Shown here piece after piece: positions 13,939-41,550 of a stretch of 64,000 bases of DNA; the first letter of the stretch is position 1, and each line of letters opens with the position of its first letter. The translations under genes and the position numbers were made by a program. Below the pieces are notes generated by a model. The model was not told where the DNA came from, searched no databases, and was given only the letters and a program-made list of their open reading frames with translations. The DNA comes from Muricea muricata (Eukaryota > Cnidaria > Anthozoa > Malacalcyonacea > Plexauridae): contig OY979716.1 in the NCBI GenBank assembly GCA_963855995.1, positions 41,873,818 to 41,937,817 of the forward strand, in the 5' to 3' direction.

Positions 13939-14115
13939 ATTTACCACCACTGCTGCACGACAAAATGGAATCCTCGGATGGAGAAGAGGAACCGCCTCTT
14001 AAGACATTAAAGACCACACAAAAACAGCAGAAACATCAGAGCAATCGGAAGAAGAAAGGAAAACACCCGGCTCTTAACGTGGCCGGGGGAAGAACTGTAA
14101 CCCTTTTACTCATTA

Positions 14116-17100: not shown

Positions 17101-17493
17101 GTTCTCCCGACGAAAAGTTACATTGCGACCTGGGGTGTGCGCATCAATACGAGGTGCCCATACTGTCCGGGTCGCGAGGATATCTACCATGCCCTCATTG
17201 GTTGTAATCGTGCACACCACCTTTGGGAACAGCTTCAGCCTATGCTGACGAGGATCGTGGGAACTCGGATTTCCATCCTCGTGGACACAGTTGCGCTTGG
17301 AAATCACCTCCCAAATAATGCCGAGGCGAAAGCCTTGTGTTTTTACCTTTTGACCCTTGCGACGGCGCTCTTATGGCAAAACCGTAACAAAAAGATCTGG
17401 AAGAAAGAGTACCAGGAACGTGACCTATACGAACAAATGATGGATGCAATTAGATCTCGACTGAAGAAAGAAACACTCATTAACGAAAGTTAA
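14116..17493 (+). pseudogene. LINE A ORF2 (APE endonuclease + reverse transcriptase), broken
   Basis: The first frame (14116-15411) holds the exonuclease/endonuclease/phosphatase fold: SLNVNGI, LLQETH, AGDFNYI, SRLDRWY and SDHSVAEV. These are the metal-binding and catalytic blocks of APE endonucleases that nick target DNA. The reverse transcriptase (15444-16460) shows NKSPGPDGL, NWRPAVLLNMDYK, HQEKAFDRVN, RQGCPLSPLLY and the catalytic YADD at 16185-16196. The C-terminal part (16738-17493) has the PTKSYI-W and CPYCPGREDIYHALIGC zinc-like block. Three defects are visible: a frameshift near 15405, an in-frame TGA near 16458 where the family would be expected to have Trp, and a frameshift near 16775. 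All domains are otherwise present, so this is a fairly recent but inactive copy. Confidence 0.85.
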
Positions 17494-21600: not shown

Positions 21601-22376
21601 CTATCCCTATTCGTGCTGGGGTGAAGCAGGGCTGCCCGTTAAGTCCCATTCTTTTCAATCTCTGCATTGAAATGATCCTCTGGCATGTTAAAGCTGCTGC
21701 TGCCAAGCTCAAGTCGGGGAACTATGTCCACTATGGCTCCGCTCTATCCTGCCTCGCCTATGCGGACGATCTTGTTATCATGGCTCGGACTAAGGATGCC
21801 CTGCAGCAGTTGCTTGATGCTGCTTCTGAGGCAGCTCACATCGTCGGTTTCCAGTTCCGACCGGATAAATGTGCATCGCTAACTTTAACATCTACTAAAC
21901 AGCGTGCAACATTTGTTACAACAGAAGATTTCACCATCCAGGGCAATCACATCCCTGCCTTCGCTCAGGAGGAATCCTATCGGTATCTCGGTGTGCCTAT
22001 TGGTTTGATCCACAATATTGATGATCTCCCGAGTATAGTTCCTCAACTGATTAAGCATATTGAGCTCATTGGTGCCTCGTTACTAGCATCGTGGCAGAGG
22101 CTTGATGCTCTACGCATGTTTGTTCAGCTGTGTCTCTCGTATGTTCTTCGGGCTGGAAATCCGGAAATGCAGTCGCTTGACCTCTACAAGTCTACGTTGG
22201 TTCGAACGCTCCGTGACATTTGTAATCTCCCCAACCGTGCTTCGGCCTCCTACTTCTTTTCACGCAAACGCTGTGGTGGGTTGGCATTCAAGGAACCACG
22301 TACTGAGTGGGACGTTATGGCAGTTGCTCAAGCGGTACATATTTTATCATCTTCTGACCCTGCTGTTGCGACTATA
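18680..22376 (+). pseudogene. Utopia-like ORF, N-terminal and RT part, multiply frameshifted
   Basis: The N-terminus near 18830-18940 has a Cys/His-containing segment ending ARHFVQDHPDHD, like the zinc fingers that position RLE LINEs on DNA. A long Ser/Pro-rich linker crosses frames several times (18940-20560). The SQKRAARK block is at 20820-20850. The RT begins near 21055 with APGFDK, FRPIALMSCIYKLL and WLDIRNAFGSVPH, then RAGVKQGCPLSPILFNLCIE. The catalytic YADD is at 21759-21770 within LAYADDLVIMA. Clear breaks lie near 18945, 19190, 20560, a TGA near 21046, and frameshifts near 21292 and 21600. The last frame runs open into the transposon insertion at 22376. Confidence 0.8.
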
Positions 22377-22415
22377 GGGCCATTCCATTTAATATCTACA
22401 CCCCCCATGGACGAG
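22377..22415 (+). repeat. Left terminal inverted repeat of the 18-kb transposon
   Basis: 39 bp, GGGCCATTCC at the tip. Complementary to 40335-40375 with one substitution (TCT/TCC context) and two inserted bases in the C-rich part. Confidence 0.9.
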
Positions 22416-22559
22416 TTGTATAATTTTTTTAGCCCCAAGAAATGTTTTTATCGTATCTAACCCCTCGGAAATATACGACTTTCGGGCAGTCCCTCAGAAA
22501 TACCTATGGACGAAGTCAGTTTTCAATGAAACCCCCAAGAAAAATGCAGTTTTGTGAAT

Positions 22560-22669
22560 GACCCCTCGGAAATTTTGATATATTGACGTTCACCCCTCAG
22601 AAATTTTGATATATTGACGTTCACCCCTCAGAAATTTTGATATATTGACGTTCACCCCTCAGAAATTCA
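22560..22669 (+). repeat. 31-bp subterminal tandem repeat, ~3.5 copies
   Basis: The unit is CACCCCTCAGAAATTTTGAT plus ATATTGACGTT. Copies begin at about 22560, 22591, 22622 and 22653 (partial). Related CCCCTCAGAAA and CCCCCCGGAAATT motifs occur at 22456-22500 and near the right end (40237-40335). Subterminal repeats of this kind are often transposase-binding sites. Confidence 0.85.
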
Positions 22670-24030
22670 CATTTTATAACAGGGAAAGCAAAAAAGCACA
22701 ATACTTCATATATGCTAATTATTTACTTCTTATGCAGATCAGCGCTTTAAGCAAACTTGCTATCTTCCCACGTATTAAGTACCTTCCCATACCAAGTTCG
22801 TGCGTCATTCAGAACAAATATAGTTACCTTAAAAATACTATTTATGATTTACAAAAAGCTTTTACATTGCAGCAATAAATACAAATATGATAAATGAGTG
22901 TTTATATGGAAAATTGGCTGCTTTACAACTGACAGGTTACAACAGAATTACTCAATTAACTGGCATTTATCAGGTTTAATTCCTTTTTTCAGGATATTAA
23001 CATAGTTTAATGTGACCATATTTGATGATTGGTCAAAAATACTTGTCTTTCAAGGTTTACCCAGACAAATGGGCGAGCTCATTTCCGGCCTGCCGGTGAG
23101 TGTTTATAAGAACAAATTCTCATTGGCATTTTAGCAGTGCCACGTTTTACTGTAAAATCCATTGCACTGAAAGATCTTGTATTAGTGGGCTGTCACAGTA
23201 AGTGGGCCAGTCTATCTTACATATAAACACCGCTCTAGAAAGAATTAATTAAACACAATATAAATTTCATTGGAAAGCTGAGCATTTGCTATGTACCCAG
23301 TGTTCACATTTGCAGTGGCACTTTCACATTTGCAGTGGCACTTTGAAAGTTTAGTAAGTCACAGTTGATTTCTGTATCTATCCTTACTATCATATTTACA
23401 ATAAGTAATGTACAAAAGGAAATCATCATATATTTAGAGTATGATTACTTAGAGTTGTGCCAGATGAGAACTGAATTGATGTAATATTAATACAACCTGC
23501 AGTGTTAATGGAACTTTTGGAACAGTTATTTGGACTTATTATATCCTAAGTTATGCTGAAAAAATAGCATTTTACAATCAGTCTTGAATTAGAAAAATTC
23601 TTGGTGTTATTGTGATGTTTTACCTCATCGGTAACATTGTCATTAGGATGAAAGTTCAAAAAAATTAGATATTTTCTAATTCACTCTGATTTTATATGTT
23701 AAGCTTTTGATTTTTATTGCAATATTATAGGCACCAAATAACCAATCAGTTTTGTTAAGTGAAAGAATAGGCATTCAGTGGTGTAACGTAACTTCTTTAT
23801 TTACCGCTTTACTTGTCCGAATTTCAATTCTATTCAAGTATATATCGTCAATTTACTAGTTGGCTTTGCTGTGGACTATGCAACGCACCAGGATAACATT
23901 TTTAGTATTCAACTATATAGAATTTAAAATTAATACTCCTAGTTCTTAGTCTGGGCAAGCTAGAGAGCGTTAAATTAAACCACTGAGCCATTACGAGAAA
24001 ATTGGAAATAATTATCCAGAATATAAGCTT
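22670..24030. other. Transposon left internal non-coding region
   Basis: AT-rich, without a convincing gene. It includes a perfect 20-bp direct duplication (TTCACATTTGCAGTGGCACT at 23303-23322 and 23323-23342). It probably holds the 3' UTR and polyadenylation site of the minus-strand gene that ends at 24031. Confidence 0.5.
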
Positions 24031-27000
24031 TCAGGTTTTCTTTAGTCGAAGTTTACCAGAAATGAGATTTGGTATAACTGATATGGTGTACACGCTATCA
24101 GGATTTCTAGAAAATACTACATCGATTTCGTCATCATCTCGGTCAACCGATTGTACCTCAGCTGCGTACCAACCTTTCCAGCCAGTATCAGAAAGTTCGT
24201 CTTGTGACCACCGTATTTCTACCATAACTCCAATTTCGTAGAATTCCTCGTACTCTATCATTTTTCTTCTTATACCCTTAGCAAGCTTTAATTTATTTTT
24301 TTCAACTTCTTCCGCGACAACATACTTGTACGTTATTCCCTTTTCTGTGTCGAATTCTACTTCTATCATATCAGTCTCTTCAGAATATTTTACAACAGTT
24401 CCTTTGTACCAACCCGTCCTCCAGCCCGTGTCTGCTATTTCTTCTTTGCTCCAAAAGATCAACACACTGCAACCAACTACTTTTAAAGCTTCCAAATCCA
24501 AAATGTTTCTTGCAGTTTTCCCAGATTCGTTATCAACCTTTTGATAAATCGTTATTTCCAGTTCTAACGGATCCAATACTTCTTCGATTGTATCTATATT
24601 TATGTTATCTGGCACAGAAAGGAATGCTTTGCTAGTTTTTGTTGAAACAGATGCACTGTCTCTAGGTCTCTGACTGCTTAATGTGCATGACGAGGCAGTA
24701 GAAAATTTCCTTTTTTTGTATATCATTTTAGGGTCTTCTAAGTACAGGTCCTTTTGTAATCGTATTAATATGTGTGTTGCTGTTACTAAATTAATAACAG
24801 CTTCACGTTCGATGTGAAAAGCCAAATAGCTTCGGTTTGCTTTTAACATTCCCACCCTCAAAGCTAATTCATCTTTTGTTCCGCAGTCGAGAATGTTGTG
24901 AAAGCGTAAGATTTCTCGAAGCCTATAAGCGGGCATTTTCTTTACTTCGGTTATAGACTCAGAGAGAGATGCAATGTCACCATCATACGGATCAAGAGGA
25001 CTCGGTAATACTAGACCCATTTTCTCTGAAAGACGCCGGACACACTCGTGCTTTTTTCCTTCGGATGGGACACCCTGTTTTCGACACATTTCTTTTATGG
25101 CAGCCTTGTGGTAGTTCTTGTAGAGTTCGTCCTGTGACCAGTACTCTCTTTCCTTTTCGTCTGCAAACGTTTTGTCTAGTTTTTGTTTAAATTCTTTTTT
25201 AAATCTTTTGACATCTTCTACCGTGCACCAACTCAAGAAAGCGATGCATGGTAAAATGGTTTCTATTTCATGTTTAAAAACTTTACAACACAATTCAAGG
25301 ATTTTTGACGGGAGAAAAGCTCCAGGCGTATTGTCCACCACAGCAGGGAGCTTATTATTTTCCAGCTTTTCTAGTGGTAGGTAGTGTAACTCCCCACCTG
25401 TTTTAATCCACCTAACATAGTCTGGAATTGGTTGGAAGCTGCAATTTCGGTCATCTTGTTCTAGTAAATCTGGGTTAAAAATTGTTGTAGAATATTTATC
25501 AGTCCACGATGTTCGTTCTCCGTCCTCTTCCAAGCTGTTGTCAATTAATTGGTAGTCCTCCCTGTAACTACCAACGAAATTTTCATTTAGATTCCAGATT
25601 GTAGATACGTCCGTCCACAATTCATTTTGGACAGGCTGATAAATATTTTCATCTTCATTTTTGCGGCATTCAGACTTCGCTAGAAAAGTAAGTAGTTGGT
25701 CTTCATCGTTGAAAACGAAGTTTTTTTCATTTCCAATCCCACGCATAACGATGCAAGGCTTACCTCCGTACTGCGTTCGAGACAAACACGTTTTAACTTC
25801 TTGAGCCATATGCTCCATGTTTTTAAGATGTTTTTCGTCTCCTATTTGGTAGTCTTGGTGAACTGCCTTGCTTGAAAACATTTCGTTTGATAGGGCATCA
25901 TTGTGAACAGCATGAACGCGTTCGACCGGATTTCTTTTACTATGAAATTCTGCAAACGATTTCTGGGTAATCGATTTCAGTTGAAGAATCCTCGCTAAAC
26001 AAACCAACCACATTCTTACAAGCGGGTTTGACGGAGCCTCTGATGGCCCGTTGTCGACTATGAATACAAAATGTTCCTTTAATTTTCCTGTGTCAGGGTT
26101 TCTGAAAAAATTGTCAAGTGCGGGATTAGCCAGGAGTAAAAAGATCTCATTGAAGACGCGCTGAACAGTCTCGGGCTCAAAATATGAGAGATTTAACAGA
26201 GTAGCTGCTGTTCCCGTCCTTCTAACGGAAAAATGGTGATCTTCCTTTTCACTTTCGGCCACACTTAAATCCGTTTCCATAAAAAGATGACTCATGGGGG
26301 TAACAGAGTTATGCACTGTTCTATTCCAGTCATGGTCAGGCAACGTTATTTTGCGCCATGTTTTTCCTGGTTTCTGAACAGGAGAAACATCTGCATTGAT
26401 TTTGGCCTTTGCGTCCTTGGAATCAATCATAACGTTGTGTGATTGCAAGTGGGCGTAATCCATTGTAAGATTCACGTTGTGCGTTGACCAGTGTAAATTG
26501 ATAACAAATTGCTCCACTCCAGTTCGAGGGGGTTTGTGCAGTGAAAGACAAGCATTAACTCCCTTGCCAGAATGGTGCCGTTTCGCTTGATATGTCCCTT
26601 CTCTATAATTTTGCATATAGTTGAAGCAGGAAGAAAGACTTATATTGAACCGCTCTGGAGCTAGTGCCAAAATAGTTTCACGTGCATGTTTCATTATGGT
26701 ATTACTATCAGCCGCTCGGTATAGAACTGTGTCCGTAAGTCTTGGGTGACTTTCTAACCCACCTCCAGCTCTATCAATCAGATCTTCTTCTCCAAATGCA
26801 AATTCAAGGATCGCAGCGAGCTCAGGAAACCCTTCGCACTTTAAATGCCTTCCTCTTCCTCGGAAAACATGACGAAGTTTTTCTAGCTTCATTTTCTGTA
26901 GTGCTCTGTGGTTTTGCTTTCTCCTTCCTTTACCTGTCAGTGTACTATTGTCGTTCCGTTCTATTTCTTCCTTCATTTGCTCGAATAATTTTAAATTAAG

Positions 27001-29247
27001 GGCCACAAGATCCTTCGAACGTTGAAAGCTTCTCTTGTCTTGAACACCAGCTAGATTTGCCATGAAAGTGGCACTTGTAATTCTTGTCAAAATCGCTTTA
27101 AATGTATCTCTGTCCCGCTTACTGTCCATATACTTTAGTATCATATGATAATCTCCCTCAATAACTTGCTTAATTTTCTCGTTTATAATTTTTTGATCAT
27201 CTTCTTTTTTAATATTTTCAATGGAATTCATCATCTTTAAAAGTTCACCAGTTCCGTTATTTTCGGCGATGTAGCCTTTTTCTTGAATGTAAATTTGAGC
27301 TACGTTTAAGAGCTTTGATAGTATCTCTAACAGACGTGATGATTCCATACAGCCAGGATCTTTTAATCCCTTTAAATCTTTATAATGTTTTATTAAAACT
27401 TGGGTTGCGACTATTGGACCGTTCTCCAAGATGTATTTTGCAAGAGATATCATTGCGCTAAAATGTTCTTGCTGTTTCAACGAGCCTGATGAGCCAAGTT
27501 TCTCCAAAAGAACACCGATATTTTCTTCGAGGGTCCCGGAAACAGATCCCCGAACAAGGAATTTTCTCTCATTTTTTTGCATAATCACGCCGCTTGTCTG
27601 TCTCTCTTCTGACCTTAAAATGTTGGTTACCGCTTTTACTCCTCTGTCTTCATACCATGACAACGATGGTCCCAGTAGTGGTATTAACTCTTCTGGTTCT
27701 TTGCCAACACTTGAAGTTTCTTGATGTGTAGTAATCACTTCTTTACTTTTATCGTCACATTTCTTGGCTTCATCTGCAGGTTCTTTAGATGTCTCCACAA
27801 CTTTAAAAAAAGAAGAAATTTTTCCACTCGCAGACGTTTTTTCCTGTACTTGACCTAACTTTACATCGGTCTTTGCAATTGGTGCAGTTGTTGCCGGTTT
27901 CTGCTTTCGCCTCTGTACAGTTGGATGCCTCTTATACTTTCGACTACTGAACTTGGCTGCTGCTCTGTTTTTGCTAGCTGGATCCTTCGATAGGCTTTCC
28001 TTTAATGTTGGGAAATCGCCTTCAGTTATTTTAATTTTCGGTTTTTCAGTCGATGTATGAACTGATTTTGTTTCTTTCCAACATCCAGAAGGGGTAAGCA
28101 CCACTTCGACTGATGTTCTTTTGGGTTCTTTCACTTCAATCTCTGCTGCTCGTTTTTCTTTCTGTGGCTCTTTTAGTCCGATAGTCTTGGTAGCTGCGCT
28201 GCTCTTCTGTTCTTTCAACGAGCTTTCTGCTAATGTTGGAAAATCTTCTTCAATAAGCTCAAATTTTGGTGATGATGGTACCGCGTAAGTTTTTAAGTCT
28301 TCGAACTTCTCACTACCAATATCACGACGTCCACGAGTTTTGGCATCAACCTCTGTGTAACTAGGTAAATTTACGTCAAACTCGCGAATTCTTTTCACTA
28401 GCGGCACAAAATGGTTTGGTTGCCAAGAGCTGAGCGGGCATGGCGTCATTCTTGTCCAAATTAAGGAAACAATATTTGTTTCCTCGTGTGGACGACTACC
28501 ACAATCTCTGCCAACTGAGATTAATTCATCTCTGGGATGGAATACTCCGTGTAAGGTATTCTTGATTGCACGAAGTGCCTGAACATCTGGATACACGGAA
28601 TGAATTGGTCTACCAAGAACAGAAGCCAGTGCAAGAATATGAAATTGACTGGAATAAACAAACGGTTTTGCTGTTTTCTGAGCCAAAATCTCGACTGCTC
28701 GGGCAGCGTTCGCAATTTGCCCTCTGTATGTATCCTCGGCTTCTTTATCGCTCAGAAAAATGTTAAAAATTACTGGTGCACTGTAAACAGACCTTTCTTC
28801 GATTTCAGCAATTTGTGGGTGATTTGCGTAAAACTCAGAATGCGCAAATAACTCCGAAACCGTCAAAAGACGAAGAACACTGGATAGTGATTCGTTTCCT
28901 GATAACGCAATAGAGGCGGCGTTGAAAAGACAGTTACCATTTCCCGTTGTCTTTATTGGAATCCAATCCTTGAAACCAGCTGGTAGAAGAGACTTGGTTA
29001 ATGCGTCTTCACCTCTGCCTATTATTTTTTGCAAGAGTACGTTTTGTGATTGCACAAACTGACCAGAAACCAATGGCAGAAAGTTTGCTAGGATCTCTTG
29101 TGCTGCATCCTTACTTGTCAGTGCCTTCGAAAGCTCCATAATTTGCATATCGTTTAAAGGATCCATTTCTAATACTGCAATTGAATGCGCGAAAAAAACT
29201 TTGATTATTTGGCAAGCTGGACAAAGCTGTTTGAGGTTTTTGCCCAC
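24031..29247 (-). CDS. 1738-aa OTU-protease-like / DDE-like / SAP / Tudor-like protein, putative transposase of the 18-kb element
   Basis: The reading frame is uninterrupted for 5.2 kb. Residues ~95-290 resemble an OTU cysteine protease: GNGNCLFNA puts the nucleophile at about Cys106, and WQPNHFVPL puts the His at about 279; the usual GDGNC Asp is Asn here. Residues ~300-480 are a Lys/Ser/Thr-rich linker that repeats a motif of the type FPTL(K/A)ES twice. The middle (~900-1120) has three acidic residues in RNase-H-fold order: MIDSKDAKAK (Asp ~941), VFIVDNGPSE (Asp ~1065) and RNPVERVHAVHN (Glu ~1109). That spacing suits a DDE transposase core. SAP-like segments follow near 1390-1470 (KEMCRKQGVPSEGKKHE; LREILRFHNI). 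Two Tudor/Agenet-like repeats end the protein (FWSKEEIADTGWRTGWYKG; RWSQDELSDTGWKGWYA). Met28 is an alternative start. Domain calls are by eye. Confidence 0.85.
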   Translation of the reverse strand: MGKNLKQLCPACQIIKVFFAHSIAVLEMDPLNDMQIMELSKALTSKDAAQEILANFLPLVSGQFVQSQNVLLQKIIGRGEDALTKSLLPAGFKDWIPIKTTGNGNCLFNAASIALSGNESLSSVLRLLTVSELFAHSEFYANHPQIAEIEERSVYSAPVIFNIFLSDKEAEDTYRGQIANAARAVEILAQKTAKPFVYSSQFHILALASVLGRPIHSVYPDVQALRAIKNTLHGVFHPRDELISVGRDCGSRPHEETNIVSLIWTRMTPCPLSSWQPNHFVPLVKRIREFDVNLPSYTEVDAKTRGRRDIGSEKFEDLKTYAVPSSPKFELIEEDFPTLAESSLKEQKSSAATKTIGLKEPQKEKRAAEIEVKEPKRTSVEVVLTPSGCWKETKSVHTSTEKPKIKITEGDFPTLKESLSKDPASKNRAAAKFSSRKYKRHPTVQRRKQKPATTAPIAKTDVKLGQVQEKTSASGKISSFFKVVETSKEPADEAKKCDDKSKEVITTHQETSSVGKEPEELIPLLGPSLSWYEDRGVKAVTNILRSEERQTSGVIMQKNERKFLVRGSVSGTLEENIGVLLEKLGSSGSLKQQEHFSAMISLAKYILENGPIVATQVLIKHYKDLKGLKDPGCMESSRLLEILSKLLNVAQIYIQEKGYIAENNGTGELLKMMNSIENIKKEDDQKIINEKIKQVIEGDYHMILKYMDSKRDRDTFKAILTRITSATFMANLAGVQDKRSFQRSKDLVALNLKLFEQMKEEIERNDNSTLTGKGRRKQNHRALQKMKLEKLRHVFRGRGRHLKCEGFPELAAILEFAFGEEDLIDRAGGGLESHPRLTDTVLYRAADSNTIMKHARETILALAPERFNISLSSCFNYMQNYREGTYQAKRHHSGKGVNACLSLHKPPRTGVEQFVINLHWSTHNVNLTMDYAHLQSHNVMIDSKDAKAKINADVSPVQKPGKTWRKITLPDHDWNRTVHNSVTPMSHLFMETDLSVAESEKEDHHFSVRRTGTAATLLNLSYFEPETVQRVFNEIFLLLANPALDNFFRNPDTGKLKEHFVFIVDNGPSEAPSNPLVRMWLVCLARILQLKSITQKSFAEFHSKRNPVERVHAVHNDALSNEMFSSKAVHQDYQIGDEKHLKNMEHMAQEVKTCLSRTQYGGKPCIVMRGIGNEKNFVFNDEDQLLTFLAKSECRKNEDENIYQPVQNELWTDVSTIWNLNENFVGSYREDYQLIDNSLEEDGERTSWTDKYSTTIFNPDLLEQDDRNCSFQPIPDYVRWIKTGGELHYLPLEKLENNKLPAVVDNTPGAFLPSKILELCCKVFKHEIETILPCIAFLSWCTVEDVKRFKKEFKQKLDKTFADEKEREYWSQDELYKNYHKAAIKEMCRKQGVPSEGKKHECVRRLSEKMGLVLPSPLDPYDGDIASLSESITEVKKMPAYRLREILRFHNILDCGTKDELALRVGMLKANRSYLAFHIEREAVINLVTATHILIRLQKDLYLEDPKMIYKKRKFSTASSCTLSSQRPRDSASVSTKTSKAFLSVPDNINIDTIEEVLDPLELEITIYQKVDNESGKTARNILDLEALKVVGCSVLIFWSKEEIADTGWRTGWYKGTVVKYSEETDMIEVEFDTEKGITYKYVVAEEVEKNKLKLAKGIRRKMIEYEEFYEIGVMVEIRWSQDELSDTGWKGWYAAEVQSVDRDDDEIDVVFSRNPDSVYTISVIPNLISGKLRLKKT

Positions 29248-29512
29248 ATAAATATTTGCAATGGGATGTTTTTTTTTCTACAAACTCTAAGCTTATCACA
29301 TGTAAAAATAAACCAATGAAAGGAAACAATTTGCTCAATATGTATCGCTAGTTTCACTGAAGTTACCTACTTTGGGATATATTATTCTAATAACTGCATA
29401 AGATAAATAACTGTCGGGTTTTTTTGCCGGTCATTAACGCAAGTTACGGGTATTTTGTTGCAGGTCTTAAACAAGTATTAAACAAAAGAGAAACTATGAT
29501 GTCTTAGAGGCC

Positions 29513-29769
29513 GGCTCGAATTATTGATAAAATCGATAGCGAAAATCGGTATTTTTCATCGATACTATTTTGCAATATTGATGTACTCGATAGTCATAGA
29601 ACACACGTATAGCGACTTTATGGTTATCAAAGACGTGATAACATGAAGCATAGCCTGAATTTCGTGATTATGTCAAATGCCAAACAGGCGCCAAAACGCA
29701 ATTCATATCAAGTAAATTTATCGACGAAAAATACTGATTTTCACTATTGACTTATCAGTAATTCGAGCC
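29513..29769. repeat. MITE-like inverted repeat, ~50-bp arms
   Basis: GGCTCGAATTATTGATAAAA at the left pairs with TTATCAGTAATTCGAGCC at the right, and the similarity continues through ATCGGTATTTTTCATCGATA. No clear target duplication. Confidence 0.75.
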
Positions 29770-30361
29770 AAACTCTAAAACATTCACATTTAAAGGGGTT
29801 TAATATCAGCTATTTTTATTTTTGGTTTATTCTTTTTGATGTAATAATCACAAACTAAAATTACGTAGTGTGGGCAGAAGAATTTGTTTCGATTTCACTG
29901 GCCAAACCAGAACCAAAACCAGGAACACAAGTGTTGTTATAGTCGAGTTGCGAAATATATGAGCCGAAAGCAATTATGTGCATGTGCAGAACCACAATAG
30001 TCATAAATTTCGCAGGTCATTAATTTCGCGCGACAGGCGGCAAAAAAGCACCGCGATCACACCTTTAAGGCCCACACGCACTGATCATGAGATTGAGCAT
30101 TATATTTCTGCGTTATATTTCATCCGAAATGCCATAAAAAATATCGTTGCTTGTAAAATAAATTACATAAAGTGAAGGACTGCCGAATTATGTCTAGAAT
30201 TCACACTGTTTTATAGAGCTGGAATAGTTTTCATTGTGAAACATGTAGATATATAGTCGCGGGTTCTGCCCCGGTCATATTTCACTTTTCAGTATTAATA
30301 TAAAGAAACTTATATTTTGAGGTAATAAGATCTCGAGTTATCACCATGATTATATTTCTAA

Positions 30362-30555
30362 GGCCTAGTTTATACGTCGCGTTTCCGTCGCATTTAATAT
30401 AAAATGTCTTACTGTTCGGAAACGCGAAACAAAACTGGACATACAACGATTCAGATTTAAAATATCATGTCACACCATTTAGATGTCAAATTCAAGTCAA
30501 ATGAATATTTTTATATTAAATGCGACGAAATTAAATTCGACGTATAAACCACGCC
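30362..30555. mobile_element. MITE with TAA duplication (PIF/Harbinger-like)
   Basis: Ends GGCCTAGTTTATACGTCG and CGACGTATAAACCACGCC are complementary with few mismatches. The inner arms share GTCGCATTTAATATAAAA. TAA flanks both ends (30359-30361 and 30556-30558). Confidence 0.75.
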
Positions 30556-31274
30556 TAACGCACTGACAAAGCATCTCATTGGAAGCACGGACTAAACAAA
30601 ATCACTATTCTCATGGCACTGGTTTTGTCTTTTTCGCACTTAATTTGAGGACATTTACCCTCGACTTTGCTCTCGACCCTCGACTTTTGTATTCACACAC
30701 TTTATAAGTCTTTACGAAAAAAGTAGCAGACATACAAAAGTACCGACAAAGAAAATTTAGACATATTTAATTATAATAACTTTAGCAAGCATTGTGAGGT
30801 ATTTTGCGGGCTAAAATAAACAAATCATAATAACTGACGTAATAGCCAATGTATAAATAGTCGGAAGCCATTTAAGTGTAGTTGTTTTTTTGAAAAACAA
30901 AGTTAAAGTTAAACGTTAAAAGGCCTTTAAAATTATTTTAATTGTAATAGAGTTGATGTTCTTGGGCATAAATATGTTTTTGGCCCTCCTCAATCTCAGA
31001 GCTCATTTTAACGAACGTCAACTCTATTGTTATATTAATTTTTTGTAGCTAACCAAAGAATCATGCTAGCGATGAAATATACTGTCGCATCGATGCAACA
31101 AGACTTTGATTTTGCCGCAAAAAATTATCACACCTTTTATGCCCACACACCCTGAAATGATAGCATTGATCAAAGCGATGCAGCTTTTTGTTTTTAAAAA
31201 ATCTTCAAAAACTCATTAATAATTCATGAGGAAAATACAAAAGAAATTAATGCTTAATCGATGTCTCTACCGTT

Positions 31275-31370
31275 TGATAGAACACTGATTAATAAAACAT
31301 CAGTGTCTTTAAATGTGATAGAACACTCATTAATTAAACATCAGTGTCTTTAAATCTGATATAGAACACC
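31275..31370. repeat. 41-bp tandem repeat, ~2.3 copies
   Basis: Units start TGATAGAACAC at 31275, 31316 and (as TGATATAGAACAC) 31357, with CATCAGTGTCTTTAAAT in the body. Confidence 0.8.
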
Positions 31371-31741
31371 ATTATACTTCATCTACAGTAAACGTTTCAC
31401 AACTGCACTGTCGTTTCCACAACAAATACAGTCAATTTTACACATCAAAATATAGTTAAACCTGAAAAGTAAACCTACCTCTTCGTATCTACGTTTACAT
31501 TAAACGTTTTGCACAGAGGCACAGACACAGCACCCCGTGTTTCTATCGCACACATTGCAAAATAATACTTATACTACATGCAAATATGCACTGAAGGTTT
31601 TCGTCAGGTCAAGCGTGAAATGAGGAAATACAAAAGAATATTATTATCAGTTTACCTGCCGCTTATTTTCATTGCCATCAACTCTCAACGGAATGCTTGC
31701 TAGTTTATAGACAATACTAATAAACTGACGTTTTTGAAGCC

Positions 31742-31848
31742 ATTTACAAAACTCGTTAATCGAGCTTTATCGGTGTAGAAAGCCGCTCGCCTTCGGCTCG
31801 CGTCTTTATACACCGATAAAGCCCTCCAACTCGTTTTGTAAATAGTAC
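31742..31848. repeat. Near-perfect ~107-bp hairpin (MITE-like)
   Basis: TTTACAAAACTCG and GCTTTATCGGTGTA pair with TACACCGATAAAGC and CGTTTTGTAAA around a GCCTTCGGC centre. Confidence 0.8.
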
Positions 31849-32581
31849 ATATCATCCCCGTTATTAACCAGGCTAGCCCGTCTTATAAAAACATCTCCTG
31901 AGAGGCATGCATCGATCAAGCGCAACCATACACTGTTTTTTGTATATCGCCCAAGCGGACATTACATATAAGCACAATTGCAAGATATAAGAAGTCGGCA
32001 AAGGCTAATGCCGTATTCAATCAGCACGTAAAAAACTTAATTAACACCAGTTATTGGCCACTGTATACACAACCCGGACGTGCTTCAGGAATGCGACGTT
32101 TTCTTCAGTTTGCAGCGGCCAGCGTGTATGAATTCAATTTGTTTCCAAAAATTCTAACATGCGATTTGAAATATAAATCACTCTTTTACTTGAATAGAAA
32201 TCGCTCTTCACTTGAAGGCATGCACACGAAATACAATACATACGGCGTACAACCGTACCACAATAGCTAGGGTATTCAGTTTTTTTTTGTAAAGCCAAGG
32301 ATTGTCGAACATGGTTATGTATCAATCGGCATTTTATACTGCATAGTCGGATTTCAACTAATATCATTGCTATGTGTTAGAAACGAATATTCTCACTGTA
32401 ATAACTTTTTAACTGATACTGGTAAAGAATTCTTAGTCAGTGATTTCTATAAGCTTTACTCCTGCAGATGAATCGACATACTCGAAATATGCGCGACACT
32501 CGGCATTAGCTAATTATTATTTCCGCGCTCAAAATGGTAATATCAACTTGCATGTCTTTAAACACAATAAGAATAATGGTC

Positions 32582-32898
32582 AAAACGTTACTCTCGATTT
32601 CAGTTCGCTTTTGAAAAATCACTTCGAATGCTCATTTGTAAGTTCGGAATGTTCGTTGCAAAGTTCCAATGTTTATTTTGAAGTTCTTTCCGACAATTTA
32701 CGATGAGCCAGCTTTGCAAGTTCTGATTGGCTGCCATGATAAGTCAGCTAATCAAATTGCTCACTGTTCAATCATCACAAATACTCGGAACGAACTTCAA
32801 AACAAACATTGGAACTTTGCAACGAACATTCTGAACTTCAAACGAACATTCGAAGTGATTTTTCAAAAGCAAACTGATGAAATCGAGAGTAAAGTTTT
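32582..32898. repeat. Foldback element, ~115-bp arms
   Basis: The left arm (ACTCTCGATTTCAGTTCG, then TTTTTGAAAAATCACTTCGA-type sequence, GTTCGTTGCAAAGTTCCAAT) is repeated inverted at the right end (ATTGGAACTTTGCAACGAAC, then GAAATCGAGAGT). The loop is ~90 bp. It contains tandem-like GAACxTTC motifs. Confidence 0.8.
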
Positions 32899-33090
32899 AT
32901 ATGAATATAAGCGGCAAAAGATCTTATGGTTTTGCTTGCATTCAACTGCACTACCGACACTGGCACGTTTGTTCTAAATTAATAAAACTATTGATATTAT
33001 ATAATATTATGACGTACCTATGATCACCAAAATCCTTCTTAATCAAAAACAGGAAATAAACCAAAAAGTAACACGCGAAGATAATAAACC

Positions 33091-33675
33091 AGTTACAGTC
33101 AGTTTTCAGCAAACTTTACACGCTCACGTTCCGAATTATATTCGGAAATTGACAAATGGGCGGGGAATTTTGTAATTACATTTTGAAGTTCGGAAGCAAT
33201 TTCCGAACTTCGATTTGAAATTCATTCCGTTCCCCGATTCCCCGTTCCTTGTTTTACAGATAGCCAAATTCAAATTGCGTGTTTACCAAGAAACATCAAA
33301 GATGTCGCAGAAAAGAAAACAAATTTAGAACGCGAATGCAAGTAAAGTTACAAACGTTGAAAGAAAATAAATTTAGAGCACGAATGTTCTAAATTTATTT
33401 TCTTTCAACGTTTTGTAAATAACGGTCGACTCTCCTACATCTAGATGGTTTCGAAAAGAATCCATCCAATTTGGTAATTCGTCGTCAGGTTTTTTCTCCG
33501 ACATCTTTGATGTTTCTTGGTAAACGCGCAATTTGAATTTCCGAATTTCAAATCGAAGTTCGGGAATTGCTTCCGAACTTCGAAATGTAATTACGAAATT
33601 CTCCGCCCACTTATCAATTTCCGAATATAGTTCGGAACTCGAGCGTGGCTCGAGTTTGCTGAAACTGACTGTAAT
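33091..33675. repeat. Long palindrome / foldback element, ~250-bp arms
   Basis: The arms start GTTACAGTCAGTTTTCAGCA and end at a central hairpin CGTTGAAAGAAAATAAATTT / complement around 33385. The inner arms share ACCAAGAAACATCAAAGATG inverted. The right arm has an extra segment near 33405-33490. No ORF of interest. Confidence 0.85.
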
Positions 33676-34002
33676 AACAATTTTAGCTCTCAAGCTGCGG
33701 AACAGCTAATAGAGAGGGGGGCGGAAGTAGAGCCTGGCTTGCCAGTTGATGCATTTATTCTTCGCACATATTTCGTCTTGTGAGCAAAATAATTGTTTGG
33801 AAATCTTTCAAAAATCATGTGGAACTGTTCGAGGACTGTAAAGAAAAGTGTTGTGGCAGAGTCTTTAGAGGAACTTTTAAGAAAGGGTAAGTTGAATAAA
33901 GAATTGAGTGTGTCGTGCGTAAAAAGTCTTGCATAGACTTTAAACATTCTATACCAGTTTGGCTCACTAAGTTTTCATAGCTATTAAATTTTTCTTATTA
34001 AT

Positions 34003-34273
34003 TAAAGACGCTGTAAAGTCCGTTCTGTACATCGGGTCTGCTTGTAACAAAGGTGATATAAACATTGCCCAAATTTTGCATCTTTCGAATATTTTCGAAA
34101 TTATTTTTTAATTATTTAATTAATTATTTCCGGAATTAATTATTTCGAAAAGTTGTGAATTGCAACTGTGGTTTATCCTATTTATAATCACAACAAACCA
34201 GAAGAGTGATATTCAGTTAGTATGTCATGTAAACAAAGCGTTTGTTTACATAGCGGACTTTACAGCATCTTTA
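34003..34273. mobile_element. MITE, TAAAGACGCTGTAAAGTCCG ends
   Basis: The left end is complementary to CGGACTTTACAGCATCTTTA at the right. A TTAAT 5-mer flanks each side (33998-34002 and 34274-34278), although the exact boundary is ambiguous in this A/T sequence. Confidence 0.7.
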
Positions 34274-35142
34274 TTAATGGACCGTATTTTTTGAAATTCG
34301 CGTTTAATTCATGATATGGATATGATTTTATCGCATGTTTACAGAATAGGAATATATATATATATAGCAATGGTAGACTCTGAATGGTAGATTTATTATA
34401 CGTAGACAGTTTAAGCGGGTTACCCGCCAAAGCTCACGCAGCGCTGTACATAGCATATATATAAATGTTTTGTGACAAGCTCAATTTGATCTTTACCAAG
34501 AAATTACGTTCATAACGCATAAAATTAGCAAAGATCTTTCACCTGCCCGTTTACTTGTTGGCTTCTGGTCGCGTAAAATGCAATTCAGACAACGATAATG
34601 AGGCAGGTCATCATCTTTTGTTAGAATTAGTATTTGATACGACTAAAATTCGACGTGAAACTAGGATCATTTCATTAAAACAAGATCTTTCGGTTGATTT
34701 CAAACTTAAAAGTTCGTTCTAAACAATTCTATGGGTTATTTAAGATAAAATTAAGGTCTTCCACGAAACCTAATGTAACAGGGCGTCCCAAAAAACCCGG
34801 ACACTGGCATATTAACTCTAGATTCAATTCAAAACAACAAAGAATTCGTAAATTTGCTTTTTCAACACCCGTATAGCTTATAATCTTACATAGCACTCGA
34901 GTACACTACATTTACCGAAATACACTCACTCAGGGCCGCATTTGTGGATCAACGGCGCATATCCTCTAGTAGTGCAAAAGATTTAAAATTATTAGCTTAA
35001 TTTGCTAAACTGAATTGCGTCGCATTGCTTAATGACGTCCCGTTTTGTATGTAGCATGACTTGATAAATGGAAGGTCATTAAAATGCGCCCATCAGCTTA
35101 TGCCAACTTTTTTATCATTTATGCGGGTGAATATATTTATTG

Positions 35143-35357
35143 AAGGCTGCTTTCCAGTTATCCGTTTTTTATATGTACGTGCACGCACGTAAAATTTCGA
35201 ACTCTTCTAAATAGAATCATTAAACAATGCAAACGTAGGGAATGCTGAATTTCCTCCATTAAAAAAGTCGTGCACTTCAAATGTGATACTGAAATGGATT
35301 GATTTTTTTACGTGCGTGTACGTGCGTGTAAAAAGCGCGTAGCTGGAAAACAGCCTT
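35143..35357. repeat. MITE-like inverted repeat (AAGGCTGxTTTCCAG ends)
   Basis: AAGGCTGCTTTCCAG pairs with CTGGAAAACAGCCTT. Inside, TACGTGCACGCACGT pairs with ACGTGCGTGTACGTG. No target duplication was recognised. Confidence 0.7.
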
Positions 35358-35736
35358 TAGTTTGCAAAATAAACAAATCCACTACTGCAAGTTGACTTTG
35401 AAAATTAATTCCATACTAGTTTGGCTGACCAGGTTTACTATGCTGTTATAGTTTTCTTAAGAGGACCGATTTATTCGCTTTTGAAATTTTGAAAAAAGGC
35501 ACTGAACACATCTTGGAGGTCTACACACACTGATTATGACGTGAACAAAGAGATTCAAAAATCTCTTAAAGACTTAATATTGTATCCCACTGCATATTTT
35601 ATCAGCAGTGCTGACTTATTGCTTAAAACATACATGCACAGTGGCGAGGTTATACAAGATCACTCGTAATCAGTTAATCAATTCTTTTGTTCAATTCTTT
35701 GTTATTCAGGGCAACGTCAGTATACTTGGTCTAAAC

Positions 35737-35907
35737 CTGGTCACTTTAGCTTAGTTTTCTCCAAGTACGTGTGCTCAAATTTTCCAGCGGATTTCTTATA
35801 AAGAATTGAAATCTTTACGTTTCATAGTCTGCTAAATATTTTTTGTGGGTTGTCCGCTGACAATAGGAGCCCGCACAAGTGGGAGAAAACTAAGCTAAAG
35901 TGACCAG
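35737..35907. repeat. MITE-like inverted repeat (CTGGTCACTTTAGCTTAG ends)
   Basis: CTGGTCACTTTAGCTTAGTT with TTTCTCC is the complement of GGAGAAAACTAAGCTAAAGT with GACCAG. The length is 171 bp. Confidence 0.75.
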
Positions 35908-36199
35908 CGTGTTTTGCAGGACTTATAGAACATGATTACAGATTTACATCGCTAATTTCAACCTCGTACCCAGGTTCTTTACTCTACGCTCCCATCTTGC
36001 TTGAGGCCAGAAACACCCGGTTCAGGGTGGTTATGTGTTCGTTAAGATTAACGTTTATCATAATGAGAAAACATTCATGCCTTTTGAAGCGAGGAATGAT
36101 TTAATAAGCAATAGGGACATAAATTGTTCGATATTTTCCCAATGGTATATTTTTTATATATTTTAGAGCAATCGATCAAGTTCCAAGTGTTTACATAAA

Positions 36200-36640
36200 A
36201 TTATGATGATTAAGTTTCAGCCCGTTTTCCCGGGCTGAATTTTGAGCCTGGTCAAAGAGTAAAATCCTAGTAAAATATAGCGAGCAAGCAATTAACAAAA
36301 GTTGCAGCCCGGGATGAGTTTCAGTGGGCTGAAACTCAACCTGGGTTGTAATTTTATCATGTAATGGCCCTGTAATCCCTTGAGCCCGGCAAAAGTTATT
36401 TACAAACACGATAATGTAATCATGTTTAGATTGTTTTTCTAACAGTCAAGTAAAGTCAACTTTCGCACGATGAAACAAAGCAAAATATAACACCATTTTG
36501 AGACTTTATTGTTTCAACCCGGGATGAGATTTCATCCTCGCTCGTACTTAAATTTTTAACTCACCCGGGCTGAACGTGCCGTGTAATCGTGAAACAATTT
36601 TAGTTCAGCTAAGGGGGCTGAAACTCTCCCTGTGTTATAA
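36200..36640. repeat. Cluster of inverted CAGCCCGGG / GGGCTGAAACTC motifs
   Basis: Repeated short inverted segments (TTTCAGCCCG, CCCGGGCTGAA, CAGTGGGCTGAAACTCA, CAACCCGGGATGAGATTTCA) suggest two or more overlapping degenerate MITEs of one family. Boundaries are not resolved. Confidence 0.45.
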
Positions 36641-36891
36641 GCTCTATGTATCACCCTTTACAAAGCATATTTCATAGGCTTGGCGATATTGCAAAAATTA
36701 GCACCTATTACTAGTCTATTGTTTTATTGTTTGTTTTGTGCAATCCTTTGCATGTTGTAAAAGCCTGTTCGCTCTCATTTCGGTAACTTGATTAGCAAAA
36801 TGAACTAAGTACATGTCGTTGTGACATTTCTTGCATTCCTGGTCGCTTTATGTTATATTATAAACGGCCATGCTAAGAATGCAGGAGTGAT

Positions 36892-37077
36892 CAGGGGCGA
36901 AACTAGAGCGTTAATTTGGGGGAGGGGATGTATATTCATATCTTCTCATACTGCCCGACGAATTTCTTTTAAAGTCAGTTATTAGGGTTGATTTCAAAAA
37001 AAAATTTGTCAGCAGAACACGAATATGTGAATATACACCCGGGCCCCTCCTCAATTAACGCTCTAGTTTTGGCCCTG
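36892..37077. mobile_element. hAT-like MITE
   Basis: CAGGGGCGAAACTAGAGCGT at the left and its near-complement ending CCCTG at the right. The flanking 8-mers GGAGTGAT and GGAACGAT differ at two positions, as expected for an aged 8-bp duplication. Confidence 0.7.
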
Positions 37078-37697
37078 GGAACGATTAAACGATTATACTT
37101 GTGGCACGTAGTTACTGCATGTTTTTTGTGAGTTATGTTATATTTCGATGATTCGACTTGTATATAACAATGCTTGGGCCTTAGGTCCAGATATCAAACA
37201 CTTAACAGAACAGGTAGAGAAATTATTGGTGGGGAGAAATGTACTCACTCCTAGCTCTCACTTTTTAATGCTAATTAAGTTTCTTATGACGCTGCTATGT
37301 CGTAGTTTTACAAGTCTCAGAAAGATGCCACTACCAACATTCCCGCATTCTTAGCATGGTCGTTTGTATTATAACACAAAGCGACTTTTTCAAGTATATA
37401 AAAACAAAGGTTTAATATGAAAATGCTACGTTGAAATGTGAAAATTCTAATTAAGTACTTATGAAAGTTGAAGTGAGCCTACTGAGCCCATGCACAGTTT
37501 ATTCATAGTGTGTTAACGTACATAAGCATAGGCTTTCAATTTATGTTTTTCCCAATATCTTATACTTTTGTCAATTTTGCATATAATCTAGGCACTACGT
37601 ATGGATACACCAAATAGGCAAAAAAGCAGAGTTTTAATTCGCGGTAATAACAGATGTATCTGAATAATTTTTAGTACCACGAATTTTTATACTCAAA

Positions 37698-39596
37698 GTG
37701 AAACTTCTAAATAGATGCTGTATTATTTCGAAATTTTTAAGTATAATGCGGGATGAGTCAATTTGGAAAATTTTCCTAGGTCGAGAAAAGCTAGGTTTGG
37801 TTGACTCGTGTGAAGAATATAAAGCTTTTGATGAGGCAGATGGAACTGAGATTGACGATGATGAGTGTCTTTTGTCATACGAAAAAGGCGCGGTTTTCAT
37901 CATCGGTAAGGAATGGAGAGCAGCATCACAAGCTGAAGTAGCTGAAGTGCAAACGTCCATTAAATATCAACCGAAAGAAAACGTTTCAGGTATGACAGAT
38001 TTTACAAAGGGAGCAGTTCAGTGTGATGAAGGTAGTGTGCATTCGTCAATCGGATTTGAACAGCTTGAAATTGAAAAGGTTGAGGAATATAGCGATCTGG
38101 CGGACTATGAAGAGGACTCTATAGAAGAAACACAACTTGAGAGCTATGATGTGGATGAAGAGACGGAAGAAAGTCATGAATTTGGCAAGTTTTTTGCCGT
38201 CATTAAAGTGATGTTTTGATTATCATACTATTAGAGTTCTATTACAGCGTAACACTACAGTTAGAGTACTATTACAACGAAACATATTGTAATTAATGTA
38301 AGGGGTTTAAAAAAATTTTTGCCCGACAATTTGTTTACAATATTATTTAGCTCAAGATTTAATTCAAGGTTTAATTTTAAAGATAGGGAAGAAAAAGAAA
38401 AGAAAGAAAAGAAGGAACTCAAAATTGAAGTAGGGAAAAAGCGTCCTCATGAAACAGACATGTCTTCTCCAACTGTTAGCACACAAACGTCAACAGTTCC
38501 TGAATATCCAGGTTTTGTTAAGAAAGGGAAAAACGGTATGCACTGACATTTTTTTATTATGTTTATGTACGGTTCATACGTCGATAACTTTACCCTAGTT
38601 TTTTTTTAGTAAGAACCAGTTATGTTTAGCCCAATTTCAGTGTTGTTATTTTTCTTGCATGGTCAGTTGTAGCCAGAAAATGTACGTATCATGTGTTATT
38701 ATCGTAAACTCTCTTTAAGGACAAAAAAACTTAAAAATCCCAGACCACAGTTTTAAGTATTAGAATATTTAAGATTTCAGTTTTTCTCAATCTCAGTTTT
38801 GCCATTTTCAGCCTTAATGAAATTATGTAATAAAAGTGTAATGTTTATCAACACATTTGCCTAAATAATTGAAAATCAAATGAATTTCATTTCTCCCTGT
38901 ATGACTTCAGAGTTATCAACTGAGCCAGCTTCTTCAAGTACCAGACAAAGTAGTGCGACTCAAAAAACGATTACGGAAGCTTTAATGCGTGCAAACAAGT
39001 ATCACAATGCAACATTAAAAAAACTTAAAATATACACTGACGAAGAAATAGATGCAGCAAATTCTGAAATGGAAAGGAAAAGGAGGCGATTTTGGAATAA
39101 CAAAGCCGAACAAGTAGCGACACCCAAAAAAACGGCTAACCTAAAGAAGACTACTCAGATGGGTATCATTGATGTAGCGTGGACATTACGAAAAACTGCA
39201 TTTATTGAAACAGATGCAAGAAAAACTCTTGATGAAGAAAAAGTTTTATTTAGGAGGCGCGAATATGAAAGAGTAACAAAAGCTGCTCAAAAAAAAGAAA
39301 CAATTCCAAAGAACTTGGACAGAATGGCTGCAGCCCATGCAGCTGTTGAAAAAGCCGATAAAGAACTCAATGACTATCGGATGAATTTTGAAAAAGCACG
39401 GACAGAAAAAGAACGACAAGCAGCAAGACAGGAATTTGAAGTGAGACAGACATTTATGGATGGTGCTTTCACAGAACTTAAGAAAGCCCAAGATGCTACC
39501 ATTAAATCCGTTAAAGCCAAAAGAAAGGAATTAGATCAGAAATTAAATGTTACTGAGTCAGAGGAAGCATGCACATCTACCGACATAGAGGGATAA
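37698..39596 (+). CDS. Spliced gene of the 18-kb element: acidic N-part plus Lys-rich coiled-coil C-part
   Basis: The first exon is open from 37698; MRDESIWKIF at 37747 is an alternative start. It is acidic and reaches a consensus donor TTTCAG|GTATGA at 37989/37990 in phase 1. An acceptor GACTTCAG|AG at 38910 restores the phase into a 228-codon open exon ending at 39596. That exon is rich in Lys, Glu and Ala with heptad-like spacing (ERVTKAAQKKETIPKNLD; KARTEKERQAARQEFE), so a coiled coil is likely. An optional middle exon at 38352-38534 (TATTTAG|C ... AACG|GTATGC) also ends in phase 1. It is divergently oriented to the 1738-aa gene. The role is unknown; a transposition accessory protein or a captured host gene are both possible. 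Exon structure is inferred from signals only. Confidence 0.5.
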
Positions 39597-40334
39597 ATCT
39601 GCATACATTGCACTTCACACGAGGGGGTTGTTGTACCATTATTTCTAGCTTAAAGTTCAAATTTGGTTGTGTATGACTTCACATAAACCCATCCTTCCCC
39701 TAATTCACTTGGATGATTACGAAACAATGTCTGAGGCTGAACTTGATTTCTTACCATTTCAGCACAAATTCAAGGACAACCTTGACTTGAAACCATTGCT
39801 TTGTGATTATCTAAGCGAATTTAGCGAAGGTCTATTGCAGAGGATAATTTAAACTTATTCATAGATGCCTTTTAATTAACAATTTACATTAACTAACTAT
39901 CCGTGGAGTCAGTAAATTAAGTGTAGCTACGCCATTTTGTATTCAAACAACTTTACTGATCACATTGATTGTAGCTTGCAAATTTCTAAGGTGGTTTGAC
40001 CTGAAAATGGCTGCAATGGAACGTATCCTACACTAATTTTTCCACTGAACTTACGTAACAATGTCACTAGCTATAATTAATTTGATTAATCAGTTATATT
40101 CCTAAACGTTACCAAATACATAGGTAATCATACACAGGTAATGTGCATATTTTTATGTAAAGAAATAAACTCTGATATCTCCCAGTCCTTCGTATCTTTT
40201 AAAATAATTTTTGAAACATATAGCAGTCCTGAACCCCCCGGAAATTATAGTCTACCAAATTTCATCTTAGAAATTTCAATTTTTCACCAACCCCCCGGAA
40301 ATTTTCCGGGAATTTCGCCCACCCCTCAGAAAAT
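39597..40334. other. Right internal and subterminal region of the 18-kb element
   Basis: Contains a short plus-strand ORF (39667-39852, hydrophilic/acidic, no motif recognised). Near the end it has CCCCCCGGAAATT motifs at about 40237 and 40292 and CCCCTCAGAAAA at 40322, related to the left subterminal repeats and in the same orientation. Confidence 0.5.
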
Positions 40335-40375
40335 CTCGTCCATAGGGGGGGTGTGGATATTAAATGGAATGGCCC
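40335..40375 (-). repeat. Right terminal inverted repeat of the 18-kb transposon
   Basis: 41 bp, complement of 22377-22415, ending GGAATGGCCC. Followed by ATA at 40376-40378. Confidence 0.9.
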
Positions 40376-40378
40376 ATA

Positions 40379-41230
40379 GCTTGTAATGAACTGAAATATA
40401 TCGTTCGCAGATCCACGCAGTCTGAGCCGACTCCTGAGCTCCTGTCGATTTATCTATCGTCGACCCCCGATCGTCGTACGGACAAACTGTATTATACTTA
40501 TTCCAGTCTTTGGTCGCGTGTTCGACAGGCGTGTAGGGCCTTCGTGTATCGTTTCATTATTCGGAGGAGGCGACTGATGTTACCATCTCAGCGGACGATT
40601 CCAAACATATTAAATCTAACCAAGTCATCACTTTGCTCCACTGTCTCGTTCAATCTCGGTTTGGTGATGAGTTGATGCAGCTGAAAGATCAAGGCAAAGT
40701 GGCCCATTGCTTGACGGATGATCCGTATGCTAATGGGTCTACGTGGCACTGTACTGGCTTGAACTTGCGTTTCAAGGATTGGAGGTTTATTCATCGTGCC
40801 CAGCTTAATGTAGTTCCGTTAAATGCCAACAAGAGTCGGTACTCCAATGTTGATCTTGCTTGTCGCCGTTGTTTGCAGCCGGAAACGTTGCCGCATGTGA
40901 TTTGCCATTGCCGCCCACATATGGTGCAGATCCGGGATCATCACAACTCCATCGTGTCGAGACTTACGAATGCGATTCGGTTCGGGAAAATCACTACTGA
41001 TCGACCCCCTCGAGGAATTCTTTGTGTCCAAGGGTAAATCTTGTGAGATTTACCCTTTCGTGGTTGGCGCCTTGGGCTCGTGGTTCAAACAGAACAAGAT
41101 TTTATGAAAGAAGCTGGGTATGACACGTCGCTATAAATCGCTCTTTTGCAAGTTGTGTTGCTCTGACACCATCACCTTGGGTGTGACGATTCGGCCCCTG
41201 GTGTTTCATCTTCTGCTTGATTTCTCTTTA
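40379..41230 (+). pseudogene. Utopia-like ORF, C-terminal part (Cys-His motif and RLE tail), degraded
   Basis: The frame entering from the other side of the transposon continues as ACNELKYIVRRST up to a stop near 40675. A second frame from about 40633 continues with the TWHCTGLNLRFKDWRFIHRA segment. The zinc-like motif CRRCLQPETLPHVICHCRPH is the CCHC/H signature that precedes the restriction-like endonuclease in this class. After 41035 a third frame reads EIYPFVVGALGSW and KLCCSDTI, the conserved C-terminal end of RLE LINE proteins. The Asp/Lys catalytic core of the endonuclease that should lie between these was not found, so an internal deletion is likely. Confidence 0.75.
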
Positions 41231-41394: not shown

Positions 41395-41550
41395 AAATAT
41401 TCAATATGTTCTATTGTTCGTCAATATGTCCTCTTGTCCTTTTGTTTGTCAATATGTCTTATTGTTCGTCAATATGTCTTATTGTTTGTCAATAGGTCCT
41501 CTTGTCCTATTGTTCGTCAATATGTCCTATTGTTCGTCAATATGTGCCTG
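41395..41550 (+). repeat. 3' UTR tandem repeat (GTCAATATGTCC-TATTGTTC), ~7 copies
   Basis: Imperfect units of about 19-30 bp. Same tract as 11200-11305. Conserved in both copies at the same distance from the 3' end, so it is a property of the element. Confidence 0.85.

Follow-up and report, generated by a model that had tools for sequence, protein, structure and literature searches.

The 64-kb stretch of the Muricea muricata genome analyzed here, the window, contains a long interspersed nuclear element (LINE) that is split by 17,999 bp of DNA at positions 22377-40375, which raises the question of what kind of element this is and whether it belongs to a known group of transposons. We hold with high confidence that the segment, referred to as copy c1, is a full-length and probably autonomous DDE (aspartate-aspartate-glutamate) transposon, from a lineage that matched no transposase family that could be tested and that may have the rank of a superfamily. 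The transposase gene lies near its left end and a second gene near its right end (Table 1).

The limits of the element can be read from the interrupted LINE, which we call Utopia-like, a name taken over from the original prediction as a label only. After deletion of the 17,999 bp and one ATA, the LINE frame was open for 98 codons beyond the junction, up to a stop. A second LINE of like kind (L016), which is matched from window position 63409 through 64000 and runs past the window end, lies about 23 kb downstream of the insertion and shares 46-50% protein identity with the interrupted LINE. Used as an empty-site control, L016 aligned with the end of the 5' flank at L016:3512 and with the start of the 3' flank at L016:3513, in adjacent codons. 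In the alignment of the joined flanks with L016 (148/319 identical, 46%), the junction is free of gaps, and the 5 gap positions fall well upstream of it. Because the uninterrupted LINE aligns without a gap across the junction, the insertion is single and clean. The arms of the terminal inverted repeats, which begin and end the element with GGGCC..GGCCC, were identical in 38 of 41 aligned columns, with 1 mismatch and one 2-nt gap. With up to 8 mismatches allowed, the left 30 nt of the element had no further place in the window on either strand.

We searched the genome (453,007,491 bases, 74 contigs) with the left 531 bp of the element; the match counts are lower bounds. At least nine matches were found, eight of which are the inverted ends of four elements, c1 included, with the ends 16.2 to 18.9 kb apart. 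The three further copies are c2 (C1:22067272-22086188, 18,917 bp), c3 (C1:74194344-74210532, 16,189 bp, reversed) and c4 (C2:14018794-14034972, 16,179 bp, reversed). All four paired copies are flanked by exact 3-bp duplications, ATA in c1 and ATT in the other three, and thus show the inverted repeats and fixed-length target duplication general to DDE transposons. The copies fall into two families, one of c1 and c2 (97-99% identical across nearly the entire length) and one of c3 and c4 (99.0% identical). Such close similarity of the copies in each family suggests that they moved recently. Between the families, the DNA of c1 and c3 could be aligned at the termini (76 bp at 83% and 89 bp at 90%), in three stretches of the transposase gene (68-71%) and in one stretch of the second gene (68%); elsewhere only four short stretches of 63-120 bp aligned (73-95%), out of place or inverted. 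This pattern reads as that of a mobile element whose ends and genes are kept while the remainder drifts.

The outer regions also carry a short repeated motif, C-rich and followed by GAA(A/T). In the outer 400 bp of c1 to c4 it occurs 8, 7, 6 and 6 times on the left and 3, 3, 4 and 5 times on the right, and 24 of the 34 neighbor distances are 28-33 bp. All 42 occurrences are on one element strand and none on the other, compared with a mean of 0.05-0.06 and a maximum of 2 in shuffled ends. The narrower pattern CCCC[TC]C[AGT]GAAA occurs eight times in the window, always on the plus strand and within about 300 bp of the element ends (5 left, 3 right). Since the arrays keep one orientation at both ends, whereas the terminal repeats are symmetric, the element has a polarity. 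We consider the arrays putative transposase binding sites.

The original prediction had proposed one very large transposon of unassigned superfamily with exact ends, and the terminal repeats, the paired copies and the uninterrupted LINE support it. Its particulars held as well: inverted repeats of 39 and 41 bp, the ATA duplication at 22374-22376 and 40376-40378, a LINE frame restored by removal of the element and one ATA, and subterminal repeats, its exact letters CCCCTCAGAAA accounting for 4 of the 8 occurrences of CCCC[TC]C[AGT]GAAA. It had suggested looking for further pairs of ends 5-20 kb apart and for an uninterrupted paralogous LINE, and both were found, in c2 to c4 and in L016. Of the two outcomes that it had named as telling against it, paralogous LINEs showing more than one insertion were not what we observed, as L016 fits a single one; the other, ends present only as short solo miniature inverted-repeat transposable elements, was likewise not seen among the matches to the left 531 bp, although one lone end was.

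A less likely alternative is that the functional element is smaller, and that the 18 kb represent an older transposon swollen by nested insertions, with cargo or debris in its middle. About 8 kb of the element lack long frames, the middle contains many inverted repeats, and c2 has segments of about 0.4-0.5 kb that are not in c1. One of these, about 0.5 kb at element position ~10630-11130 (L009 and L010), has inverted-repeat sequence at both ends and is probably a nested small element. However, both families span 16-19 kb and carry the transposase gene towards the left end and the second gene towards the right, which argues that the large size is a lasting trait, and most of the middle is common to c1 and c2 at 97-98% identity, which argues that it moved as part of the element.

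The predicted transposase (P0001) is encoded by a frame that is open throughout in c1 and whose first ATG, at 29166, would give a protein of 1,711 residues. Its counterpart in c3 and c4 is a frame of 1,560 codons with two more matching segments after it, which we interpret as putative exons. Near the N terminus is an OTU-like cysteine protease domain in which the motifs GNGNC and NHFVPL can be read, and a SAP domain (PF02037) was matched at E<=1 in 16 of 17 family members. By predicted fold and alignment, the protein has the RNase H-fold core and conserved D-D-E residues general to DDE transposases. The predicted fold and the conserved triad thus identify the transposase as a probable DDE enzyme with OTU and SAP domains. 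One family member, P0067, is named Vertnin by a source.

We consider it fairly unlikely that the element instead belongs to a known superfamily, such as a mariner/pogo-like, Ginger-like or KDZ one, and has diverged so far that the profile searches missed it. In the predicted structure, the core most resembles Mos1/Metnase and retroviral integrases in fold. Ginger1 transposases are also described as carrying OTU domains, on elements with ends of about 40-270 bp (PMC2836005). However, such a fold match is shared by DDE enzymes as a whole and cannot assign the lineage. Both the target duplication and the termini are unlike those of Ginger1, the target duplication is unlike that of Zisupton (8 bp), and the termini are unlike those of EnSpm (CAC..GTG). 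Moreover, none of the 17 members matched a Pfam transposase or integrase family at E<=1, in searches whose HMMER filters drop most weak matches. KDZ, for which Pfam has a model, was likewise not among the matches of the 17 members at this threshold.

The second gene comprises two frames, A and C, that both recur in c3 and c4. Frame A has 62% amino acid identity to c3 over residues 38-84 and frame C 51% over residues 35-242. The codon scores of the two frames (Table 1) and of the transposase (0.17) compare with -0.20 to 0.09 for ten other frames of the element. Two short frames, 38265-38546 (score 0.128) and 39649-39852 (0.117), had no match in c3 or c4 and may be exons of this gene. In the profile searches, frames A and C had no Pfam family above cut-off, no NCBIfam family and no Myb/SANT Pfam match at E<=0.1, although the lack of a profile match is no proof of absence. 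Frame A is weakly CIDE-N-like (Pfam CIDE-N E 0.017, below cut-off); between c1 and c3 it shows 34% identity over 155 codons and a nonsynonymous divergence (dN) of 0.62, with the synonymous divergence (dS) not computable. These profile results, the state of frame A and the fact that no protein-database homologue search was made for this gene leave room for the view that it is a captured host gene or a set of chance frames and not part of the transposition machinery. We regard this as quite improbable: the gene has an unchanged place and strand in all four copies, across both families, the 243-residue frame stands at the corresponding place in 4 of 4 copies, codon usage resembles that of the transposase, and frame C shows a dN of 0.41 against a dS of 2.6 (near saturation) between c1 and c3.

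Maverick/Polinton elements carry intact DNA polymerase B and capsid genes. That this is a self-synthesizing element of that type or a degraded virus is extremely improbable in spite of its inverted ends and size of 16-19 kb, because c1 has no stop-to-stop frame of 150 residues or more besides the transposase and the second gene and hence could not accommodate an intact polymerase B or capsid gene in one exon, and because little of the middle can be aligned between the two families. The original prediction had likewise reported no DNA polymerase B or capsid.

Several observations weigh against the interpretation as a full-length, autonomous transposon of a separate lineage. The fold is a prediction, and Foldseek TM-scores were only about 0.3 across whole chains. 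The triad count covered the window and 57 of the 76 homologues, leaving out 19, and one of the rows counted has only 11 residues where others have 43, likely through a gene-call or alignment fault. In a strict count over 131 proteins, all three motifs were present in 83 and not in 48; six of the latter are OTU-only relatives, and others may be partial gene calls. The transposase frame of c2 is broken once (1,192 + 579 codons). Within families, constraint on the transposase and frame C is not visible, with few changes to count: dN and dS were 0.0036 and 0.0010 (c3-c4) and 0.0071 and 0.0094 (c1-c2, 1,148 codons) for the transposase, and 0.0035 and 0 (c3-c4) and 0.0052 and 0.0134 (c1-c2) for frame C. 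The motif pattern used for the four copies was composed after inspection of these same ends. The ninth genome match, at C1:37169326 (L015, L017-L019), is a lone end with 3 mismatches in 30 and ATT outside; a search of the 23.8 kb on its inner side gave neither a partner end at up to 10 mismatches nor a match to the transposase or the second gene at E<=1e-5. Finally, the terminal repeats, target duplications and predicted fold suggest a cut-and-paste mode, but copy-out or replicative movement may apply instead, and a superfamily recorded in Repbase or in a paper could be the same lineage.

For a transposon of the kind that we favor, movement might proceed as follows. The transposase would bind the subterminal motifs, spaced by about 30 bp, and the 40-bp ends, pair the ends and cut at GGGCC with its DDE core. 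It would then insert the ends at positions staggered by 3 bp in an AT-rich target, here ATT or ATA, and repair by the host would convert the stagger into the duplication. The SAP domain, and possibly C-terminal GW..GWY-type repeats, may help hold DNA or chromatin, and the OTU domain, its activity being guessed from motifs, may deubiquitinate the transposase or repair factors; the product of the second gene would be an accessory factor. We give slightly less than an even chance to the broader proposal that these elements form an undescribed superfamily of giant two-gene DDE transposons, present in cnidarians and molluscs, in which an OTU-type ubiquitin protease is coupled to a transposase that reads polarized arrays. 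As a lead only, vertebrate vertnin (VRTN), which in humans is reported to have an inactive OTU-like domain (PMC10318531), might descend from this lineage or from a different transposon with an OTU domain.

Three points give the element wider interest. One- or two-gene cut-and-paste transposons are usually a few kilobases long; as one genome here has two separate families of 16-19 kb that keep their ends intact and their genes conserved, it becomes possible to test how large such an element can be and still transpose. A transposase family that is widespread yet has no Pfam transposase match will probably be mistaken for host genes when those of corals and molluscs are counted. That OTU domains are fused to the DDE cores of transposases otherwise unlike one another suggests a part for the ubiquitin system in transposition, a link already raised in the description of Ginger (PMC2836005).

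Table 1. Coordinates of the element, its genes and the flanking LINE within the window
Feature	Position	Strand	Basis or remark
Interrupted Utopia-like LINE, 5' side (reverse transcriptase)	21528..22376	+	Pfam RVT_1 E 5.6e-19; paralogue alignment
Target site duplication ATA, left copy	22374..22376		read directly
Left terminal inverted repeat, 39 nt	22377..22415	+	aligned to right arm; like ends in three other genomic copies
Left subterminal array, 8 copies of ACCCCTCAGAAAT-type motif	22431..22666	+	steps 28-31 bp except one of 41; one orientation
Transposase frame, 1,748 codons stop to stop, uninterrupted	24031..29277	-	homologues; predicted fold
SAP domain (P0001 residues 1392-1416)	25030..25104	-	Pfam PF02037 E 1.9e-5, 24.6 bits vs cut-off 23.9
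Stretch modelled as RNase H-fold catalytic core (P0001 residues 900-1200)	25678..26580	-	predicted fold
Predicted catalytic triad	D955 26413-26415; D1075 26053-26055; E1119 25921-25923	-	alignment and predicted fold
OTU-like cysteine protease domain (P0001 residues 112-227)	28597..28944	-	Pfam PF02338 E 2.3e-5, 25.3 bits vs cut-off 23.3
Central stretch, longest stop-to-stop frame 122 residues	29300..37600		largely unalignable between families; several internal inverted repeats
Second gene, frame A, 183 residues, first ATG 37746	37668..38219	+	codon score 0.195
Second gene, frame C, 243 residues	38865..39596	+	codon score 0.206
Right subterminal array, 3 clear motif copies	40233..40333	+	orientation as left array
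Right terminal inverted repeat, 41 nt	40335..40375	-	aligned to left arm
Target site duplication ATA, right copy	40376..40378		read directly
Interrupted LINE, 3' side to first stop	40379..40672	+	first 54 residues resume paralogue alignment at next codon

Outside the element, two other LINEs with endonuclease, reverse transcriptase and zf-RVT frames lie at window positions 14101-17490 and 56159-59768. Two tandem arrays of similar 20-bp units (TCAATATGTCCTATTGTTCG type) were found at 11198-11294 and 41401-41545. The latter follows the interrupted LINE, whose 3' side has a short match (19 residues, E 0.022) at 11078-11134, just ahead of the former; from these positions, the arrays may represent the 3' tails of LINEs. 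At 53954-54117 on the plus strand, U1 spliceosomal RNA is matched over its full length (Rfam RF00003, 114.9 bits), by either a gene or a copy.

When compared with known systems, the features tested place the element in none of Maverick, CACTA, Ginger or Zisupton; PIF/Harbinger is not among the groups rejected here. Tc1/mariner elements duplicate TA and are usually much smaller; here the duplication is ATT three times and ATA once, the element is far larger, and there is no sequence-family match to Mos1 or Metnase/SETMAR. EnSpm/CACTA elements share large size and subterminal repeat arrays with the present element, in which, however, the motifs keep one orientation at both ends. As described in PMC12730594, EnSpm elements also have 3-bp duplications but CAC..GTG termini, in place of the GGGCC..GGCCC found here. 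The same source gives 0-, 2- or 3-bp duplications for Harbinger-type elements and two proteins, one of them Myb/SANT, for Nuwa families (PMC12730594); the 3-bp duplication and the two proteins are points of likeness, whereas the profile searches gave no Harbinger transposase among the 17 members at E<=1 and no Myb/SANT family for frames A and C at E<=0.1. For Zisupton an 8-bp duplication is given (PMC12730594), against 3 bp in all four paired copies. Judged by its description in PMC2836005, Ginger1 is the nearest known combination of a DDE core with an OTU domain, which occurs in some of its families, with Hydra (a cnidarian) and Aplysia (a mollusc) among the hosts. Ginger1 and the present element both join a DDE transposase to an OTU domain and have inverted ends of tens of base pairs or more. 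In Ginger1, however, the OTU domain is C-terminal, the core is of the Gypsy integrase type, the ends are TGTNR, the duplication is 4 bp (CCGG/CCGT) and the length is about 2.6-7 kb (PMC2836005), whereas here the OTU domain is N-terminal, the ends are GGGCC, the duplication is 3 bp (ATT/ATA), the length is 16-19 kb and there is a second gene; the 17 members matched no integrase Pfam family, yet the predicted fold resembles integrases. The OTU-bearing transposases P0126, P0127 and P0129 have the same N-terminal OTU type (28-33% identity in the best alignments), but the remaining protein is like that of Mutator-like elements (MULE), with weak Pfam matches below cut-off. Since the same type of domain is thus also found on MULE-like transposases, OTU is a module of unlike transposases and not the mark of one lineage.

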